34,014 nt of DNA from a virus, in the IMG/VR virus record IMGVR_UViG_3300023103_000010, positions 1-34,014 of that record; one strand, given 5' to 3'. Under the pieces are notes generated by a model, which saw nothing but the letters and a program-made list of their open reading frames with translations, was not told the origin of the DNA and made no database searches. Of this stretch, positions 5,578-32,836 are shown piece after piece (positions within the stretch are counted from its first letter, which is position 1; each line of letters opens with the position of its first letter). The position numbers were made by a program, and so were the translations under genes.

Positions 5578-5711
5578 TCCGGTTTTTAGAAGTAACATAC
5601 GGCCTGCTACTGGGTTTTTCACTTGTGGCCACTCTTTTAACTTTCATCATTGCCCTTGCCGGAATCATTCTGGCAGGGTTTAAACTCCTCGGATTATGGA
5701 TATCTGCATAG
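5574..5711 (+). CDS. 45-aa single-pass membrane protein
   Basis: Starts with ATG 5574 inside the stop of the DUF3164 gene (ATGA) and ends at TAG 5709-5711, overlapping the HAD gene by 16 bases. After a short MIRFLEVTYG head almost the whole product is hydrophobic (LLLGFSLVATLLTFIIALAG and on), giving one long or two short membrane segments. Coupling on both sides argues that it is translated. Function unknown; membrane-acting middle gene products in phages can affect superinfection or host physiology, but nothing here shows that. Confidence 0.6.
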   Translation: MIRFLEVTYGLLLGFSLVATLLTFIIALAGIILAGFKLLGLWISA

Positions 5712-6121
5712 ACTTCGACGGGACTTGTGTGACACACGAGTTCCCAAAGGTTGGGCGCGACATTGGCGCTGTCCCTGTATTGAAAGCCCTGGTAGCAAAA
5801 GGGCATAGATTGATCCTTTTTACGATGCGTAGCAATAAGGTAGAATGTGAACCTGCTGATCCTGCACATCCAGAGATCATACCAGTGCCTGGCTGTTACC
5901 TAAATGATGCTATTAAATGGTTTAAGGATAACGAAATTCCTCTTTATGGAATCCAAAGCAATCCAACTCAATTACGTTGGACAGGTTCTCCCAAAGCTTA
6001 CGGTCACTTATATATTGATGATGCTGCTTTGGGCTGTCCGTTGGTTCAATATATGATAGGAAAACCTCATGTTGATTGGCCACGGGTGCAGGTTTGGTTG
6101 AGAGGAAACGGGATTTTATGA
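5696..6121 (+). CDS. HAD-superfamily hydrolase, small phosphatase type
   Basis: A 141-aa protein with HAD motif I DFDGT (D6, D8), motif II Thr in LFTMRSN (T43), K100 in SPKAYGH and an acidic motif YIDDAALG (D108, D109). The small size with little cap resembles the compact Bacteroidota HAD proteins often found in phages. It would hydrolyse a phosphate ester; the substrate (nucleotide, polynucleotide 3' end or sugar) cannot be read from the sequence. The start at 5696 overlaps the preceding membrane-protein gene, and its TGA overlaps the start of the following zinc-ribbon gene. Confidence 0.85.
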   Translation: MDICIDFDGTCVTHEFPKVGRDIGAVPVLKALVAKGHRLILFTMRSNKVECEPADPAHPEIIPVPGCYLNDAIKWFKDNEIPLYGIQSNPTQLRWTGSPKAYGHLYIDDAALGCPLVQYMIGKPHVDWPRVQVWLRGNGIL

Positions 6122-22266: not shown

Positions 22267-22577
22267 TAACAGCTGTGATTAGTGCTGGTTCGGTTTGGAC
22301 TGGTCGATGGCTTTTTGATCGCAATAAAGAGCGTAAGGAAATGCAGAAATCAGAGGTTGAGCTATCTGAGCAAGTTGCTAAAATGTGGCGTGAAATGTCC
22401 CAGGAACTTGAAGTGAAAGTAAAGGACCTGCGAGGAGAAATGGAAAAAATTATTGACGAGATGTCAACTCTTAAATCTGAAAACCAAGACCTGAAAAATG
22501 AGAATGGACGTCTAAAAAAAGAGGTCGAAAAACTTACTACCAGGGTAAAAGAATTTGAAACAAAACATGGGGAATAG
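22233..22577 (+). CDS. Membrane-anchored coiled-coil protein, holin candidate
   Basis: 114 aa. A moderately hydrophobic segment near the N-terminus (residues about 8-28, EIVTAVISAGSVWTGRWLF) is followed by a long heptad-type coiled coil (KWREMSQELEVKVKDLRGEM and on to residue 110). The gene overlaps the M15 endolysin gene, in the place of a holin or membrane lysis partner. One weak membrane segment plus coiled coil is unusual for a holin, so the role is tentative. Confidence 0.55.
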   Translation: MQDAPNYVSEIVTAVISAGSVWTGRWLFDRNKERKEMQKSEVELSEQVAKMWREMSQELEVKVKDLRGEMEKIIDEMSTLKSENQDLKNENGRLKKEVEKLTTRVKEFETKHGE

Positions 22578-23007
22578 AGATATTAAAGATGCGCATCCGC
22601 GCTTACAAAAGCTTTGGGTATTCATTCTGATTGAATGGGTTAAGCGTTACCCGGCTGATCTAATTCCGTTCCTTACGGAGGTTTATAGGTCGCCAGATTT
22701 GCAGCGTGCTTACTATGCCCAGGGGCGCGAACCAATGGCACGGGTTAATAGCCAACGGCGTTTGGTTGGGCTTTCTCCGATTAGTGAGGATGAAAACCGC
22801 CGAACTATTACCAATAGTAAACCAGGCCAAAGCAAACATCAAAAAACGCCCAGTGAAGCCATTGATATTTGGTTTCAGAAGGATAGAAAATTAATTGATG
22901 ATGCCAGGCTTTGGAAACAGCTTTATGATTTGGTTCAGGAGTTTGACCCAGCTATCAGGTGGGGCGGTCATTTCAAGTTCGTTGATAAGCCCCATTTTGA
23001 GATTTAA
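22567..23007 (+). CDS. Endolysin, M15-family peptidase
   Basis: From ATG 22567 the enzyme has 146 aa (a TTG four codons earlier is less likely). The zinc site is visible: SKHQKTPSEAIDIWF (H91, D100) and the C-terminal WGGHFKFVDKPHFEI (D140, H143). The N-terminal helix and EVYRSPDLQRAYYAQGR match M15 peptidases that cut peptide cross-bridges in peptidoglycan. No signal peptide is present, so a holin or similar should release it. It sits between tube and chaperone genes, an unusual place for lysis genes in Mu, but frequent in related Bacteroidota phages. Confidence 0.88.
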   Translation: MGNRDIKDAHPRLQKLWVFILIEWVKRYPADLIPFLTEVYRSPDLQRAYYAQGREPMARVNSQRRLVGLSPISEDENRRTITNSKPGQSKHQKTPSEAIDIWFQKDRKLIDDARLWKQLYDLVQEFDPAIRWGGHFKFVDKPHFEI

Positions 23008-25500: not shown

Positions 25501-25997
25501 TGGGAGCGCCTTTAATAATACCTGGTGTAGGAAAGCCCATTGATAAGGCAACTGTGGCCGAAAGTGGTGTAATGATGCAGATGCCTATGTGGTTAGGAGA
25601 AACCGAACGGGACCTTTGGTTATTGCCATTTGAACCACAAGTTGCTGTTCGTGGACGCAATGTTATCACCAGGCGGACTATTGCCAAACAAAAAGAGCGA
25701 GGTTTTGGAAGCGTGAAAGAACTCTGGACGAAGGATGATTATGAAATAACAATTTCAGGATTGCTTCGGGATTACACCAAGCCAGGCGTGTTGCCTTCCG
25801 AAATGATAACCAAGCTTGACGGTCTTTGTAGTCTTAAAAAGCCGCTTATTGCTCAATGTGCATTACTGGAAGCTTTGGGCGCTTCACAAGTTGTAATTGA
25901 AAGCTGGGAATTTCCACCGACTGAGGGGATAGAAAACCAGATGTTTACTATTAAAGCATATTCAGACCAAAATTTTCAACTTTTAATCGAAAAATAA
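25500..25997 (+). CDS. DUF6046-like tail protein
   Basis: 165 aa, between tape measure and hub, where LysM- or gp43-type baseplate initiators lie in other myophages. Segments such as LGETERDLWLLPFEPQVAVRG, TRRTIAKQKERGFGSVKELW and DDYEITISGLLRD match, by eye, the DUF6046 family of Bacteroidota phage tail proteins. It overlaps both neighbours by one to two bases. Confidence 0.65.
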   Translation: MGAPLIIPGVGKPIDKATVAESGVMMQMPMWLGETERDLWLLPFEPQVAVRGRNVITRRTIAKQKERGFGSVKELWTKDDYEITISGLLRDYTKPGVLPSEMITKLDGLCSLKKPLIAQCALLEALGASQVVIESWEFPPTEGIENQMFTIKAYSDQNFQLLIEK

Positions 25998-27037
25998 TGA
26001 AGCAAATTAAATCAATCCTTGCACTATGTGTGCTATTATTTATCACCATTCAAACTGAGGCTATGTATAAGTTGGATTATGAAATCACTATCGGTAGTTA
26101 CACCTTGCAGGCTTTGGATAAGGTAAGTATTGAAACCAGTCAGGAGCTGCTCTCTGATGCATGTAAAATTAGTCTGCCTGGTATGATCGCAGGACGTGCT
26201 ATTCAGATTGAGGATCAGATTAAGCGCGGTGATGTGGTCACCGTTCGATTAGGTTATAATAAAGCGTATGTAACTGAATTTTCTGGTTACTTAAAAGCGA
26301 TTTATCCGGATAGTCCAATGGTGCTTGAATGCGAAGACAGTGTGTTTTTGTTCCGTAAGGATATTAAAAGCAAGATTCTGAAAAACGCGACTGTAAAAAC
26401 CATCCTCCAATATGTTTTGGATGACATTAATCCAAAGTTAAAAACACCTTTTAAACTGGTGTCAGACCTTTCCGGGGACAGTTACAAATGGGATTCATTT
26501 ACAATTCATAATGCAACCGGCTTTGAAGTCCTGGATAAGCTAAGACAAGAGTCCGGGTTGATGATTTACGCTAAGGGAAACGAGCTGCATTATCATCTTG
26601 CTTATACCCAAAAAACAGGGGATGTGATATATGATTTTGCTGTCAATATTGAAAGTACAAATGATCTTAAATATGTCAAAGCCCAGGATGCAAAAGTGAA
26701 GGTGAATGTCGTTGGCCGTACTGCCAAAGGTTCGAAAGTTGAAGGGGAGGCGGGCGAGTCAGGAGGTGATTCACGCACTATACAGCGTCCGACTATTAGT
26801 GATAAAGCAACTCTTGAAAACATTGCTAAGGCAGAATTGAAAAAGCTAACGTATGACGGGTACCGTGGGGAAATTGTTGGTTGGCTGGTGCCTTACTGTT
26901 CCACTGGTTATTCGGCGAAAGTGAGAGATGAACTCTATCCAGAACGTGCGGGTACTTATTATGTAGTTGGAACCAAAGTAGAGTTTAGCCAGAACGGCGG
27001 CATTCGAACTGTTAGCCTTGGTGCAAAGCTTTCATGA
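25997..27037 (+). CDS. Baseplate hub protein (gpD / Mu gpP / T4 gp27 type) with signal-peptide-like start
   Basis: 346 aa. From residue 23 the sequence has the hub fold of late-control gene D proteins: YKLDYEITIGSYTL, RGDVVTVRLGYN, VLECEDSVFLFRKD, NATVKTILQYVLDDINP, FEVLDKLRQESGLMIYAKGNEL and VKVNVVGRTAKGS, forming the ring that holds the spike. The first 22 residues (MKQIKSILALCVLLFITIQT-EA) look like a Sec signal peptide, which a hub should not need. ATG 25997 is coupled to the upstream gene (TAATG); an alternative start is ATG 26063 (M23), with a GAGG before it. Confidence 0.82.
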   Translation: MKQIKSILALCVLLFITIQTEAMYKLDYEITIGSYTLQALDKVSIETSQELLSDACKISLPGMIAGRAIQIEDQIKRGDVVTVRLGYNKAYVTEFSGYLKAIYPDSPMVLECEDSVFLFRKDIKSKILKNATVKTILQYVLDDINPKLKTPFKLVSDLSGDSYKWDSFTIHNATGFEVLDKLRQESGLMIYAKGNELHYHLAYTQKTGDVIYDFAVNIESTNDLKYVKAQDAKVKVNVVGRTAKGSKVEGEAGESGGDSRTIQRPTISDKATLENIAKAELKKLTYDGYRGEIVGWLVPYCSTGYSAKVRDELYPERAGTYYVVGTKVEFSQNGGIRTVSLGAKLS

Positions 27038-27627
27038 GCAGAAGACAAGAGCTTATTGATCTTTTGCGGAACCAGGACGCGCCGATTCAGGTATATCAGG
27101 CTATTGTAATAAGTATCGACGCGCGATGGAACCAGTGTACCGTCAGGCTACTTCCGTCAGATTTAGAGGTTGAAGGTGTAGCAATGGTTGCGGAAGAGGA
27201 TGCAGGATCTTGGTTGTGCGTTACACCAAAAATTGATTCTCTTGTCTTAGTGGGCTGTGTTTATAACCAGGTTTCACAAATGTACCTGGTACAGTGCGGA
27301 GAGCCTGACAGTATTGAAATCCTGATTGAAAAATCAAAAGTCAATATTGATAAAGACAGAATTAGCCTGGTAAATAATAATGCCTCCGTTACACTTGATC
27401 AGGAAAAAACTGTTGTTAGCCAGGGTAATCTTTCAATTGAATTAAAGGGTGGAAAAGTCAGAATAAAGAACGATCAAACCGATTTAAAAACGTTGTTCGA
27501 CGATCTTTCAACCCTGTTACAAAACTTTAAGGTTGTCACTGCCCAGGGACCAAGTACCGCTTTGTTTCCCGATACACTGGCAGCATTAACCCAATTTAAA
27601 ACTAAGTATCCATTGCTTTTATCATGA
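27034..27627 (+). CDS. Baseplate spike / assembly protein (gpV, Mu gp45-like)
   Basis: 197 aa, directly after the hub (ATGA overlap), as in Mu gp44-gp45. The N-terminal part is an OB-fold-like domain (AIVISIDARWNQCTVRLLPSD; DSLVLVGCVYNQ), followed by a strand-repeating needle-like region (DKDRISLVNNNASVTLDQEK; GNLSIELKGGKVRIKND) and a final helix. It would form the membrane-piercing trimeric spike. Assignment by order and pattern. Confidence 0.78.
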   Translation: MSRRQELIDLLRNQDAPIQVYQAIVISIDARWNQCTVRLLPSDLEVEGVAMVAEEDAGSWLCVTPKIDSLVLVGCVYNQVSQMYLVQCGEPDSIEILIEKSKVNIDKDRISLVNNNASVTLDQEKTVVSQGNLSIELKGGKVRIKNDQTDLKTLFDDLSTLLQNFKVVTAQGPSTALFPDTLAALTQFKTKYPLLLS

Positions 27628-27914
27628 CAGATTTCACGCTTGATGATTCCGGCGATTTGAAGATTTTAGGGAATAATTTGGTTGCTGCTGACAGCACATT
27701 ACAACACCAGGCTGACATTATTTGGAGCGAAAAAAGTTGGTGGCATTTTGCACCAGCGCTTGGTGTAGGGTTGCAGCAGTGGTTAAACGAATCAGGCACT
27801 TCACCTGGTTTGGTTCGGGTGATCCGGCAGGAGTTGGAACGTGACGGAATGAACGTGGAAACAGTAGGAATTGGAGACGATGGTATTAAAATAAACGCAA
27901 CTTATCCGGAATGA
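27624..27914 (+). CDS. Baseplate wedge protein, Mu gp46 / gp25-like
   Basis: 96 aa. It has the small wedge pattern: DDSGDLKILGNNLVAAD at the N-terminus, a helix after it, and a last segment NVETVGIGDDGIKINATYP like gp25/GPW proteins ('v......d.g.i.v.v.y'). Position between spike and gp47-like genes matches Mu gp46. ATGA overlaps on both sides couple it to spike and Tad2-like genes. Confidence 0.75.
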   Translation: MTDFTLDDSGDLKILGNNLVAADSTLQHQADIIWSEKSWWHFAPALGVGLQQWLNESGTSPGLVRVIRQELERDGMNVETVGIGDDGIKINATYPE

Positions 27915-28204
27915 GCGATTCAAGATTATATTTTAATTATATGTGGGCTGAAATCCACATGAGAACAGCAAAGGTCGTACGACGTGCCGAGTGGCCGGTT
28001 GGCAAAACTATCTATTATGATACGGATGGTGATGGTATTCCGGATGAACTGGATGTTTCTCATCCGGATTTCCTGGCAAATGCCAAGGAAAATTATGCTA
28101 AATATAAAGCAGGTGTTCGCATTGCGCAAGATGGCGAAGTACTGCCAGCTGCGTATGTTACACAGGCCGATTCACTGGCAAATGACTGGTACATCGTAGA
28201 ATGA
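27911..28204 (+). CDS. Tad2-like (DUF2829) protein, putative anti-Thoeris sponge, in baseplate operon
   Basis: 97 aa. The start (FNYMWAEIHMRTAKVVRRAEW) fits the Tad2/DUF2829 pattern 'F..A......gk.V.R..W', and the end (VLPAAYVTQADSLANDWYIVE) fits its closing 'W.pSq.DmLAeDWeiv'. Tad2 proteins bind and sequester the cyclic-ADP-ribose signal of Thoeris defence. A middle insertion contains DTDGDGIPDELD (37-48), a thrombospondin type 3-like calcium motif that I do not know from typical Tad2. ATGA overlaps on both sides tie it to baseplate genes, so a structural role is the alternative. The family match is by eye. Confidence 0.62.
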   Translation: MSDSRLYFNYMWAEIHMRTAKVVRRAEWPVGKTIYYDTDGDGIPDELDVSHPDFLANAKENYAKYKAGVRIAQDGEVLPAAYVTQADSLANDWYIVE

Positions 28205-28773
28205 AAAAGTACACCGTTTTGCCTGGTCAAAGTCTTTTTGATATTGCCGTTTCCGAGTATGGAAACGTATCCGGCATTACCTGGTTAATAACCGATAATG
28301 GTTTAAATGGGCCTACCGACAGGATTTATGAAGGTCAGGTGTTAATGATCAGGCCGGACACTATCAATGTTCGTACTAAGGCGTATTTGGCCGATCATCC
28401 TGTTATTGCTACAATCGGGCCAGAAGACCAACCCGAAGGAATTGGCTTTTGGCGGTTGGATGATTATATAATTGGTGGGCCGGTTGATCCTGATCCTGAC
28501 CCTGACCCTGATCCGGAACCGGAGCCAGACCCAGGACTTGCATTTTTAACGGCATCATCTGAAACCTTTGAGAATGGCTGTGTTTTCACGATTGTGGTGA
28601 ATAAAACGGGTGTTTATTCGGTCACATTCACTAATCTGACTACTAATACTGCCAGCACTTATTCAAACTATCCATTTGAGGCAGGTCAAATTGCAGCGTT
28701 TGGTTATTTTAATGCTGCGACTACTTACGACATTCAAATACTTACTATACACACACAAATTACAACTGCATGA
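28201..28773 (+). CDS. LysM-containing baseplate protein with PD-repeat linker
   Basis: 190 aa. Residues 1-52 are a LysM domain (YTVLPGQSLFDIAVSEYGNV ... IYEGQVLMI), as in P2 gpX-type tail proteins and T4 gp53 that bind baseplate or peptidoglycan. A low-complexity Pro-Asp/Pro-Glu linker spans about 95-112, and a C-terminal strand-rich domain follows (FENGCVFTIVVNKTGVYSVT). It is coupled by ATGA to both neighbours. The tail suggests a surface-exposed decoration attached by a flexible linker. Confidence 0.72.
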   Translation: MKKYTVLPGQSLFDIAVSEYGNVSGITWLITDNGLNGPTDRIYEGQVLMIRPDTINVRTKAYLADHPVIATIGPEDQPEGIGFWRLDDYIIGGPVDPDPDPDPDPEPEPDPGLAFLTASSETFENGCVFTIVVNKTGVYSVTFTNLTTNTASTYSNYPFEAGQIAAFGYFNAATTYDIQILTIHTQITTA

Positions 28774-29582
28774 GAAGCTTAGAAGAAATACAGGCTGAGC
28801 AGGACATTGTTCTTGCAAAATACCCTGTTCTGGCAGCATTAGATAGCACAAGTGATGTTTCATTTTTCGCTTTAATGAGAAAAATGTGGTCACTTTTGGT
28901 GCAAATGTTGGGTGCGGAATGGGATCAATTCAAAAGTGAGATAGAAGTGAAAATTTCTTCTACAAGAGTTGGTTCGTTGTCCTGGTATGTTGACCAGGCT
29001 AAGGCGTTTCAGTATGGTGATATGATCAGTGTGATCGAGGGTCAAGTTGCCTATGATGTAATTGATCCTGCTAAGAAAATTGTTACTCAGGCCGCTATGA
29101 CTGAGGATATGGCCACTGGTCGATTGACATTAAAGGCTGCAAAAATTGGTTCTGATGGACTGGTTCCATTGCTATCCGATGAGCTGCAAGCGCTTACTTC
29201 GTACATAGGAAAAGTGAAGTATGCAGGCGTTACCTGTGATGTGATCAGTATTGAAGCTGACCATCTAAAAATTGTAGCAACCGTAAAGGTAGATCGTCAG
29301 GTAATTGGTAATACTGGAACACTGCTTTCAGACTCTTCAAAGCTTCCCGTTTTAGATGCTATTTCAGCTTATATCGCAGCACTTCCTTACGACTCTATTT
29401 TGTCTAATACAGGTTTGACGGATGCAATCCAAGCGATTAAAGGCGTGAAAGATTTTACTGTTTCTTCAAGTGCGACTCGTCGCCCTGTTTCTGCTGATTG
29501 GGTGCCCTACTTGCGTGAAGTTGTTAGCCAGGCCGGACATCTGAAACTGCATGCAGATTCGGCCATTACATACATTTATTAA
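28770..29582 (+). CDS. Baseplate J-like wedge protein (Mu gp47-like)
   Basis: 270 aa. The N-terminus (LEEIQAEQDIVLAKYPVL) and the helix FALMRKMWSLLVQMLGAEWDQFKSEIE are typical of gp47/gpJ proteins; the C-terminal half with LKIVATVKVDRQVIGNTGTLL, LDAISAYIAALPYDSILSNTGLTDAI and GVKDFTV matches the baseplate J domain. It forms the wedge with gp46- and gp48-like partners. The upstream end of the previous gene holds an AC-rich ACTATACACACA stretch. Confidence 0.8.
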   Translation: MRSLEEIQAEQDIVLAKYPVLAALDSTSDVSFFALMRKMWSLLVQMLGAEWDQFKSEIEVKISSTRVGSLSWYVDQAKAFQYGDMISVIEGQVAYDVIDPAKKIVTQAAMTEDMATGRLTLKAAKIGSDGLVPLLSDELQALTSYIGKVKYAGVTCDVISIEADHLKIVATVKVDRQVIGNTGTLLSDSSKLPVLDAISAYIAALPYDSILSNTGLTDAIQAIKGVKDFTVSSSATRRPVSADWVPYLREVVSQAGHLKLHADSAITYIY

Positions 29583-29591
29583 TCCCCTGAT

Positions 29592-31352
29592 ATGCTCATA
29601 GATATTGAAAAGTATGTGAGGCAATTGCTGCCTCCTAACCGCCGATTGCCTAAGCATATCGGTTTGGTGACCACTTTGTTTAGCCCGATTGAGTCAATTA
29701 TAAAGTCGTTTAATGACTATAAATATGACAGTCAGTTTGATGTAGGAACGCCGGGACAAATGGCAGTGCTGGAATACATCCTGCAAAGCTATGTCCATTA
29801 TAATATTAAGGTACTGGGTGCGGACGGTGTAAGGCTGGATTTTCGCGTTTTGGTTCCGGAAGGTCTTAGCCAGGGAGACCGTGGGGAAGTGGTAAGAATA
29901 GTAGAACGTTACCGGTTACGCTCAAAGCGATATGAGATTAAAGACTCTCTTGACTGGGGAAATGGTGGTGACGATCCGATTACAGGGTTGGCATTTTCCC
30001 CATCTCCGACCATTGTAGAAACTAGTCCAGGCTTTTGGCTTGTAAGTTATGGTGTTAATCAGGCTGGTATTTGGCCGACTAATTTAACTAATGTTACGCA
30101 AGGCATCGGCTACCTTAATAATGATATTGAGTATGCTGCTGGTTCTCAGAAAAACTTTCAGGTTACGACCGCCGGGGAATACGATTTACATGTGGGAAGC
30201 CTTCATTTTAAGCTTGTTGCTACTGCAACTGAAATCGTTTCAATTGCTCCTAATTGGCTTTTAGGTATTGGTTTGACAAATGATGTAAATAGCAGGGATG
30301 CAAGTCTTTGGCTGAACGCTACCACTGACTGTAAGCTTAGGTTAACGGGAACCGATGGGGTGCCAATAAGCGGAATTACCTCAAACAATATGCCATTTTC
30401 GGATGGTGTATGGATTGATGGAACTACGGATTGGGCTGCTCCCTGGTCTGAGGTTTTTCGCTTGAATCCAATGTCTTATGGCGTGGGAGGTTTAATCGCA
30501 GGTAAGCAGTATAAAATTGAAATAGTCAGGACAAGCCAGTCCAGCCCTATTTTTTCAATGTTACTAACGATACCAACGACAAGCCATATATATCCGCCAA
30601 TGGTGGTGGATTTGCCGACCAATAATCTACTTGCTTGCGAGAAAGGCCCAGAGGTTTATGGTATGGCTTCCTATACACAAACAGGGCTTAGCTGGTACAT
30701 GGATGGTAAAAATGTAGATCAGGTAAAAGGTTATCTTAAACGTGTAAGTGATGGAGCAATTATCTTTCAGCCTATCATTGATTTTACCAAGATTGTTGAT
30801 GGTGTAAAGGTTTCTGTTTTCTCTCCTGGTGCACGTGGAATATATACTTTTCCTACACCTGTCGCGCCAGGTATTTATTTATGGGGAACCGAAGGCTCTA
30901 GCTGTTCTTCACCTCAGATTTATTGGAGCCAACCGTTTACAATTACTGCTCCTAACGTTCCCGATCCAGGGCCAGAACCAGAGCCACAAACAGGGGCTTA
31001 CATCTGGAAATACGTTCTCGAGTGTTATCCACCGCACATGACTCTTGATATTGTGGCAAGTCCTGACGGGTTGGGTTTGCTGGTTACCGATTTAATAAAT
31101 TATCCTGTTCAGGGTGATTTTGAGGTCAGCTACGTAATTAATGAACAGCTCCATCGTGGTGTCGGCAGATTGGTTAATCACCTGCATCATTTCCCTGCTC
31201 CCCTTAGCATAAGGAAGGTTAAAAACAGAATAGGAATCCCAGGCCTATACATTACTGGTTCAGGTAATTCGGGAGGGGATTTGTCCGCTATTCAGACATT
31301 TTCGGACAATACATCATACGCACAAATCGACATAATTTGCATTAAACAATGA
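29592..31352 (+). CDS. Large tail protein: gpI/gp48-like N-terminus with added fibre domains
   Basis: 586 aa. Residues 1-120 resemble the tail protein I/gp48 role that ends the wedge: YVRQLLPPNRRLPKHIGLVTTLFSPIESI, TPGQMAVLEYILQSYVHYNI, VRIVERYRLRSKRYEI. The rest is strand-rich, like stacked Ig/beta domains, with a Pro-Glu linker at about 455-463 (VPDPGPEPEPQ) before a final domain of about 120 residues. The extra domains probably make this protein part of the host-contact apparatus. Only the N-terminal assignment follows from gene order. Confidence 0.65.
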   Translation: MLIDIEKYVRQLLPPNRRLPKHIGLVTTLFSPIESIIKSFNDYKYDSQFDVGTPGQMAVLEYILQSYVHYNIKVLGADGVRLDFRVLVPEGLSQGDRGEVVRIVERYRLRSKRYEIKDSLDWGNGGDDPITGLAFSPSPTIVETSPGFWLVSYGVNQAGIWPTNLTNVTQGIGYLNNDIEYAAGSQKNFQVTTAGEYDLHVGSLHFKLVATATEIVSIAPNWLLGIGLTNDVNSRDASLWLNATTDCKLRLTGTDGVPISGITSNNMPFSDGVWIDGTTDWAAPWSEVFRLNPMSYGVGGLIAGKQYKIEIVRTSQSSPIFSMLLTIPTTSHIYPPMVVDLPTNNLLACEKGPEVYGMASYTQTGLSWYMDGKNVDQVKGYLKRVSDGAIIFQPIIDFTKIVDGVKVSVFSPGARGIYTFPTPVAPGIYLWGTEGSSCSSPQIYWSQPFTITAPNVPDPGPEPEPQTGAYIWKYVLECYPPHMTLDIVASPDGLGLLVTDLINYPVQGDFEVSYVINEQLHRGVGRLVNHLHHFPAPLSIRKVKNRIGIPGLYITGSGNSGGDLSAIQTFSDNTSYAQIDIICIKQ

Positions 31353-32836
31353 GTAACATACAACTAGAATTTGTGCCTCAATGGCCGAAAGAATATGACC
31401 CGACTATCAAAAGAAATCAATGGATGGATGTGATTCCTAATTTGGTTAATGTTGATCCTGGATTTTTGTGGGTGATGCCTCGAAATGAGAGTACAATGGC
31501 AGAGCTTATTGCAAAAGGGGTTAACAGGTTCACACGTTCAGATATGGGTGTTCCGGGTTGGACGCAAGAGCAGGTAGTTGCATTTAGAGACCAAGGTTAT
31601 GGTTATGATGATGTTCCGCAAACACCAACACAGTTCGGTTTGGGAGATAGAGGTCCCGGAGCTTCCGAGTGGGTCTCTGCACCAGGTGTACCAACAACAT
31701 GGCCTAACATTTGGAATCGTCGCTTTTTTAATACCCAGGCAGGCGCTACGGAGCCAATGCCAGCAAGTGAAGGTGCAATGAAGGGCAATCAGTATAACAC
31801 TGATCATACACTCGTTATATTTGAAAATACTGAACAGGACCACGCAATCAGCAGCCATTGGTCGTTTGTGAAGGCATGGGCAGCGAATTGGGTACCAAGG
31901 GTAATTAACCGTTGGCCAGGAAAAAAAGTGATTGTTTGCTGGAATTATTTCAGTGGTTTCGGGAAAACAATCAGGTGGGGTAATAAAGAGGAAAAAAAAG
32001 CACTACTCCACTTACCGCTTAGCCAATGGGAGGCTAATCCAATGTTGCCCGGTGGAGATTTAGAGTTGTTTAACGGAGTATGTTTTGGCGTGTACATGGG
32101 CGCTCCCGATGATGTCAATCACGTGCCTTATGACTTTATTTATAACGCCTATATAGCAAGGAAAGCGAATAAGTTTTTGGTTTGTTTTACGCAGGGATTC
32201 CACGAATGGATGCCGAATGTAAAATCACTTTGGACCTTTTCGGATGGAAAATATTATGCTGATGGGAAAATGGCAATTTCTCCCAATATAGGCTTTGCAA
32301 ATATGTTATTCGTAAAAATTTTTGGAGACTGTTTTGCACCATTTTCCATGTCAGGAAAATATGTAATAGATGAAGAACATCCTGTAAGAATTGACAGAGA
32401 GTGGCATCAGGGAGGTATTTGGATTCCGGCTGGTCAAACTGAGCCTGTTAGTTTAGATGAATTTCCTCATTGGGGCAAGCCTGAAAGGTATCCTGGTGGT
32501 GGAATATCTGATTATACTGGGTTTGCTGCTTATTATTTTGACCGCACATTTGGCTACGTTATCGGTGGAACGGAGGAGTGGTGCGACTATCGTGCAGATG
32601 GCGGTGCATGGGTGCCAGCCGTGAATAGTTGGGCTGACGATGTTTGTAATGCCTACTACGGTAGTGGTTATTTTGTTTATTCAAAGCGTAAGAATAATAT
32701 TATTTCCTTCCTTGTATTTAATGGAAAGGCTTCGGATAGCGTTCGGCATAAGGTAGAGTGGAAATATCAGGGTCAAATATTTGAGGGCTGGATTGCTGGC
32801 ACTATTCCTTATTGCGTAAATTATACCCTATCTTAA
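31349..32836 (+). CDS. Unidentified 495-aa tail-tip protein, possible receptor binding or glycosidase-like
   Basis: Starts by ATGA coupling to the preceding tail protein. It is unusually rich in Trp, Tyr and Gly and has alternating strands and helices (HTLVIFENTEQDHAI; KKVIVCWNYFSGF; ANKFLVCFTQGFHEW) like a TIM-barrel glycosidase in its first 300 residues, then a strand-rich C-terminal part. I cannot match it to a named family. Position after the wedge genes and before a fibre gene suggests receptor binding or surface-polysaccharide processing. Confidence 0.6.
   Translation: MSNIQLEFVPQWPKEYDPTIKRNQWMDVIPNLVNVDPGFLWVMPRNESTMAELIAKGVNRFTRSDMGVPGWTQEQVVAFRDQGYGYDDVPQTPTQFGLGDRGPGASEWVSAPGVPTTWPNIWNRRFFNTQAGATEPMPASEGAMKGNQYNTDHTLVIFENTEQDHAISSHWSFVKAWAANWVPRVINRWPGKKVIVCWNYFSGFGKTIRWGNKEEKKALLHLPLSQWEANPMLPGGDLELFNGVCFGVYMGAPDDVNHVPYDFIYNAYIARKANKFLVCFTQGFHEWMPNVKSLWTFSDGKYYADGKMAISPNIGFANMLFVKIFGDCFAPFSMSGKYVIDEEHPVRIDREWHQGGIWIPAGQTEPVSLDEFPHWGKPERYPGGGISDYTGFAAYYFDRTFGYVIGGTEEWCDYRADGGAWVPAVNSWADDVCNAYYGSGYFVYSKRKNNIISFLVFNGKASDSVRHKVEWKYQGQIFEGWIAGTIPYCVNYTLS

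Follow-up and report, generated by a model that had tools for sequence, protein, structure and literature searches.

A divergent Tad2-like gene with a candidate calcium loop in the baseplate operon of a Mu-like phage, likely of Dyadobacter

Introduction

Tad2-family proteins are sponges that sequester bacterial nucleotide immune signals, for example the cyclic-ADP-ribose signal of Thoeris. A Tad2 sponge is a homotetramer that holds gcADPR, His-ADPR or cyclic dinucleotides, leaves them undegraded, and shields phages from Thoeris or CBASS. A gene of 97 codons with Tad2-like ends, embedded between baseplate genes of a phage, raises two questions: whether its product belongs to the Tad2 family at all and, if it does, whether it acts against host defence or has been built into the virion.

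The virus record that forms the window analysed here is 34,014 bases long. It carries genes for a Mu-type transposase and a transposition protein, for portal, terminase and contractile tail sheath, and for the baseplate, and it belongs to a Mu-like, Winoviridae-related myophage. The window's baseplate hub protein shares 75–77% identity with the products of prophage genes in Dyadobacter frigoris and in an uncultured Dyadobacter, and about 26–32% with the hub of Winoviridae phages that infect Flavobacterium and Winogradskyella; Dyadobacter is accordingly the likely host genus. The hub ORF (25997–27037) and its orthologues in the related loci L003 and L004 start with a signal-peptide-like hydrophobic stretch (MKQIKSILALCVLLFITIQTEA), which is missing in more distant relatives; translation could in fact begin at an internal ATG, codon 23. 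An ORF in the early region (5696–6121) matches phrog_1238, annotated as phosphoheptose isomerase in the moron category (E=3e-28).

Results

Family membership and gene neighbourhood

The Tad2-like ORF is intact, and its product, here called P0001, carries V23-x-R25-x-x-W28 near its start and T84-QADSLANDW93 near its end. ATGA overlaps link the gene to both of its neighbours (junctions GGAATGAGCG and GAATGAAAAAG; Table 1), as the first-pass annotation had described. Against the Pfam family PF11195 (Tad2-like, formerly DUF2829), P0001 scores 30 bits (E=7.5e-7) over model positions 2–73 of 73, above the gathering cut-off of 25 bits, and in a search of the whole genome the gene scores 28.9 bits; the resemblance to Tad2 first noticed at the two ends of the protein is therefore real and above chance. 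As a single query against PDB sequences, P0001 finds AcrIIA7 as the best Tad2 chain at E=0.24. When a profile is built from P0001 and one relative, AcrIIA7 and HgmTad2 become the top PDB sequences (E=5e-4 to 7e-4), followed by ModTad2, another Tad2 and SptTad2 at E=0.02–0.05, and only Tad2/AcrIIA7 chains are significant. Searches of viral contigs and of phages with P0001 alone returned zero matches because the protein is too divergent. Judged by its sequence, P0001 is a divergent member of the Tad2 family. The base composition of its gene (GC 0.439, GC3 0.357) resembles that of the neighbours and carries no signature of recent transfer, and no Bacteroidota-type promoter pattern was found near the gene.

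Table 1. Features of the baseplate region of the window and lysis-type genes at the equivalent boundary of related loci.
Feature	Coordinates	Strand	Evidence
gp46-like baseplate wedge protein, upstream neighbour	27624..27914	+	L003/L004 orthologues; weak phrog_120; ATGA overlap
Tad2-like (PF11195) protein, divergent, 97 aa	27911..28204	+	Pfam; two-sequence profile search; structural matches of a modest-confidence model
EF-hand/TSP3-type loop DTDGDGIPDELD, residues 37–48	28019..28054	+	Sequence; sub-threshold TSP3 matches; shared with L031/L033
LysM-domain tail protein, acidic DPDPEP-rich linker, downstream neighbour	28201..28773	+	Pfam LysM; ATGA overlap
gp47-like baseplate protein, conserved right border of slot	28770..29582	+	Orthologues; profile matches
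Tail-fibre-like protein	31349..32836	+	Homologue immediately upstream of the loop-bearing Tad2-like gene in L033
Lysis-type genes between gp46-like and LysM genes	L041 7794-9463; L049 7766-9458; L061 7923-9071; L073 7780-9202		

The names given earlier to the two flanking genes stand with different firmness. The gp46-like protein is 63–68% identical to its orthologues in L003 and L004 and matches the baseplate wedge family phrog_120 weakly (E=0.07), so that this label is weak by profile and rests mainly on synteny, while the LysM label of the downstream gene is moderate, its Pfam match (E=0.0014) falling just short of the cut-off. The gp47-like protein is 57–63% identical to its orthologues and has profile matches in most related operons. 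The LysM protein contains an acidic linker (PDPDPDPDPEPEPDP) and, at its C-terminus, an additional domain absent from the L003 orthologue (190 aa in the window, 92 aa in L003).

Predicted fold and pocket loops

An AlphaFold2 model of P0001 guided by an alignment of 38 Tad2-like sequences reached a pLDDT of 68, with the lowest values (<50) at a DGDG loop. The 24 best matches of this model in the PDB are all Tad2 structures (E from 4e-4 to 0.08; best match E=3.8e-4, TM 0.5–0.75 to the target, from an input alignment that itself contained Tad2s), and the 25th is an unrelated protein at E=1.2. Convincing matches are thus confined to Tad2, in keeping with the proposed fold; since Tad2s were in the alignment, this modest-confidence model is consistent with a Tad2 fold and is not independent of the family assignment. 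A model built with the loop-bearing subfamily alone was uninformative (pLDDT 40).

The gcADPR pocket of Tad2 is formed at loops β1–β2, β3–β4 and β4–α3, and the cyclic-dinucleotide site is the insertion after β2 (reviewed in PMC12043709). When the 27 positions kept in at least 85% of canonical Tad2 sequences are taken as conserved and the pocket is judged by loop, P0001 and its relative in viral contig L033 each retain 9 of the 27. The β1–β2 (WNGKGMF) and β4–α3 (GWLASQTD) loops are largely substituted in both proteins, with Y for the W of GW, so that the ligand-lining loops are not conserved in P0001; R25, W28, Q85, D87, D92 and W93 persist. Because the loops that surround the canonical ligand are largely rewritten, the ligand of P0001 should not be assumed to be an isomer of cyclic ADP-ribose; with 9 of 27 positions kept and both WNGKGMF and GWLAS gone, ligand binding may be lost.

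A calcium-type loop shared with one relative

Directly after the predicted strand β2, at the start of the insertion that binds cyclic dinucleotides in HgmTad2-type proteins, P0001 carries the loop DTDGDGIPDELD, whose residues D37, D39, D41, G42, I43, D45 and D48 follow the pattern D-x-D-x-D-G-x-x-D..[D/E]. Pfam TSP3 models match it at E=0.05–0.08, under the cut-off, and the loop is a candidate calcium site. The insertion, flagged earlier as unfamiliar in Tad2, is real: a set of 72 distinct canonical Tad2s taken from viral contigs contains no DGDG, and the loop recurs in one other Tad2-like protein. PF11195 scores above the cut-off in 10 of 222 genomes of the host family, and among these one (L031) has VYLDIDGDGIPD at the equivalent place; viral contig L033 carries the identical sequence. 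This 114-aa relative scores 34.1 bits for PF11195 and is 29–32% identical to P0001. The two proteins have 8 of 9 motif residues in common and are about 22% identical over the remaining sequence, and the chance of such sharing is about 4e-5 at one fixed position, before allowing for the choice of position. Loop position 12 of P0001 is not retained in L033. A tree pairs P0001 with L031 (SH-aLRT 85), a weak result given a quick search and very long branches. Surveys of the order and the phylum, covering about 390 and 395 genomes respectively, yielded no further loop-bearing member.

L031 falls within the same genus group as D. frigoris, and its prophage belongs to a different lineage from the window phage. 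In L033 the Tad2-like gene lies outside any baseplate module, between an upstream tail gene and a putative lipoprotein/spanin-like gene; the upstream tail protein is 33% identical over 502 columns (E=9e-87) to the tail-fibre-like protein of the window.

Several other candidates were set aside. Three viral-contig DNA-pattern matches (a DGDG loop upstream of DxxAxDW) proved on inspection to contain no Tad2 ORF; the Tad2 fragment at a contig end of a Dyadobacter MAG (L012) is a different, WNG-type copy on another contig and was rejected as the homologue of the window's gene; and L022/L032 and L120 encode weakly matching, different Tad2-like proteins without the loop.

The tail-fibre-like protein is common to three Dyadobacter-associated phages at 30–33% identity (31349–32836 in the window, 6487–7962 in L033 and 11294–14716 in L004), two of which belong to different lineages. 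The L004 copy forms the end of a 1140-aa fusion protein, and the window and L033 copies have no Pfam match.

An accessory gene at a variable boundary

Synteny was examined by a profile search of 80 viral loci with related hubs, together with annotated relatives; the interval was readable, with both borders recognised (the gp46-like gene, and the LysM or gp47-like gene), in 70 loci, some of them near-duplicates. In none of these 70 does the scan detect a Tad2 gene, and the Tad2-free relatives include operons 63–77% identical in the neighbouring proteins. The three loci closest to the window (L003, and L002/L004 from one prophage) join the gp46-like and LysM genes directly by ATGA. Where a LysM match is present (31 loci), these two genes are adjacent in 20 and separated by other genes in 11. 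In the four endolysin candidates that were checked (L041, L049, L061 and L073) the intervening genes match endolysin or amidase families and are accompanied by putative lipoprotein and membrane genes. This gene content indicates that the gp46-like/LysM boundary is a slot for late non-structural genes and that the Tad2-like gene is accessory cargo there: it is absent from 70 relatives, the closest loci join directly and endolysin genes occupy the slot elsewhere. A late placing within the baseplate operon, as first proposed, is supported, whereas the companion suggestion, that the baseplate has recruited a Tad2 fold as one of its parts, is not supported by the comparison, and the gene was rejected as a core component of the baseplate. 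Canonical Tad2 genes have varied neighbours (methyltransferases, terminase small subunits, portal proteins and replication genes), so that the baseplate-operon site is unusual for Tad2 and belongs to no general rule. The window's own endolysin is located elsewhere, at 22555–23007.

Discussion

We lean, by a little, towards reading P0001 as a late-expressed Tad2-type nucleotide sponge of altered ligand specificity, carried as accessory cargo by a temperate Mu-like phage, probably of Dyadobacter. The gene would have been inserted at a late-tail-operon boundary that other members of the group also use for non-structural late genes, and ATGA-coupled translation with baseplate genes would place its production in the late phase of lytic growth. 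Phage capsid protein sets off at least one staphylococcal Thoeris system (PMC12578639). A capsid-sensing Thoeris would start its nucleotide signal once structural proteins appear, the stage at which P0001 would be supplied; a P0001 oligomer could then bind and sequester the signal, and the effector would stay off. One would expect its ligand preference to have changed or its pocket to be metal-assisted, because both pocket-lining loops are altered and the D-x-DGDG loop lies beside the pocket region. A speculative and quite improbable proposal is that the DGDGIPD loop binds a divalent ion at the pocket edge and forms a bridge between the phosphates of an immune nucleotide; these proteins would then be a Tad2 subfamily, with either a new ligand or calcium-gated affinity, that unrelated phages of one host genus carry as late cargo.

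The readings that compete with a late sponge differ in what they ask of the pocket and of the locus. The Tad2 fold may have been kept while nucleotide sequestration was lost or replaced by another host-takeover job, such as the capture of a protein or of some other small molecule; the DGDG loop would then be a calcium-stabilised surface. The loop substitutions are partly alike in P0001 and L033 (AY..QAD for GWLASQTD), which, with the few canonical positions kept and the very long tree branches, favours such a change; the persistence of the six residues listed above, and of an aromatic Y in place of the W of GW in both proteins, as if some binding geometry had been retained, speaks against it and leaves this reading rather unlikely. 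EF-hand and TSP3 loops typically occur in proteins that are exported or extracellular, the gene sits between baseplate genes and the sole other loop-bearing relative likewise adjoins a tail gene, all of which would suit a Tad2-fold protein that is part of the baseplate or travels with it and is stabilised by extracellular calcium. We nevertheless regard a virion component as unlikely: every readable related operon lacks the gene, residence in a slot that holds endolysin genes in relatives implies no virion role, and the L033 gene is not part of a baseplate module. Finally, the likeness to Tad2 might be a chance one at the ends around an unrelated middle, as the marginal single-query match to PDB chains and the uninformative subfamily-only model could suggest; the above-threshold Pfam match along almost the whole model, the independent relative at 34 bits and the significant profile search leave this reading nearly refuted.

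Set beside known systems, the sponge that we favour would combine familiar and new features. Like Tad2 of SPO1 (gp34.65; Thoeris anti-defence 2), P0001 matches PF11195 over almost the entire model, and has the R..W and QxDxxAxDW ends, and its Tad2-guided, modest-confidence model matches PDB 8SME/8SMF/8SMG; it differs from canonical Tad2 in the replacement of WNGKGMF and GWLASQTD, in the added D-x-DGDGIPD loop and in the position of its gene within a baseplate operon. Its best sequence and structure matches, of similar length, are HgmTad2/AcrIIA7 (PDB 8KBI-8KBM, 8WJC, 9KZR) and SptTad2, with which it shares an insertion after β2; in HgmTad2 this region reads RPEDSLP... and binds cyclic dinucleotides, whereas in P0001 it is an EF-hand-like acidic loop. 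ModTad2 from a Myroides odoratus prophage, which binds His-ADPR (PDB 9EIB, 8V3E), likewise comes from a Bacteroidota prophage and has the fold that the model suggests for P0001, but retains REGWNGKGMF and is without the DGDG loop. The Dyadobacter-genus prophage protein of L031/L033 shares with P0001 the D-x-DGDGIPD and AY..QAD segments and a late tail-region site near a homologous tail protein; its gene differs from that of the window in belonging to another phage lineage and in following a tail-fibre gene and preceding a putative lipoprotein gene.

These comparisons extend the Tad2 family to members with rewritten canonical pocket-lining motifs and place a calcium-type loop where HgmTad2-type sponges determine which ligand they bind. 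They also suggest that counter-defence genes can occupy the insertion slots of late operons that otherwise serve lysis genes, in line with the timing of capsid-triggered Thoeris. Thoeris loci occur in the host family, with a full-length ThsA-like match in 7 of 222 genomes.

The SIR2-SLOG ThsA-like genes of loci L201–L207 encode proteins of about 480–490 aa and adjoin TIR/DUF1863-like genes, some having two such neighbours.
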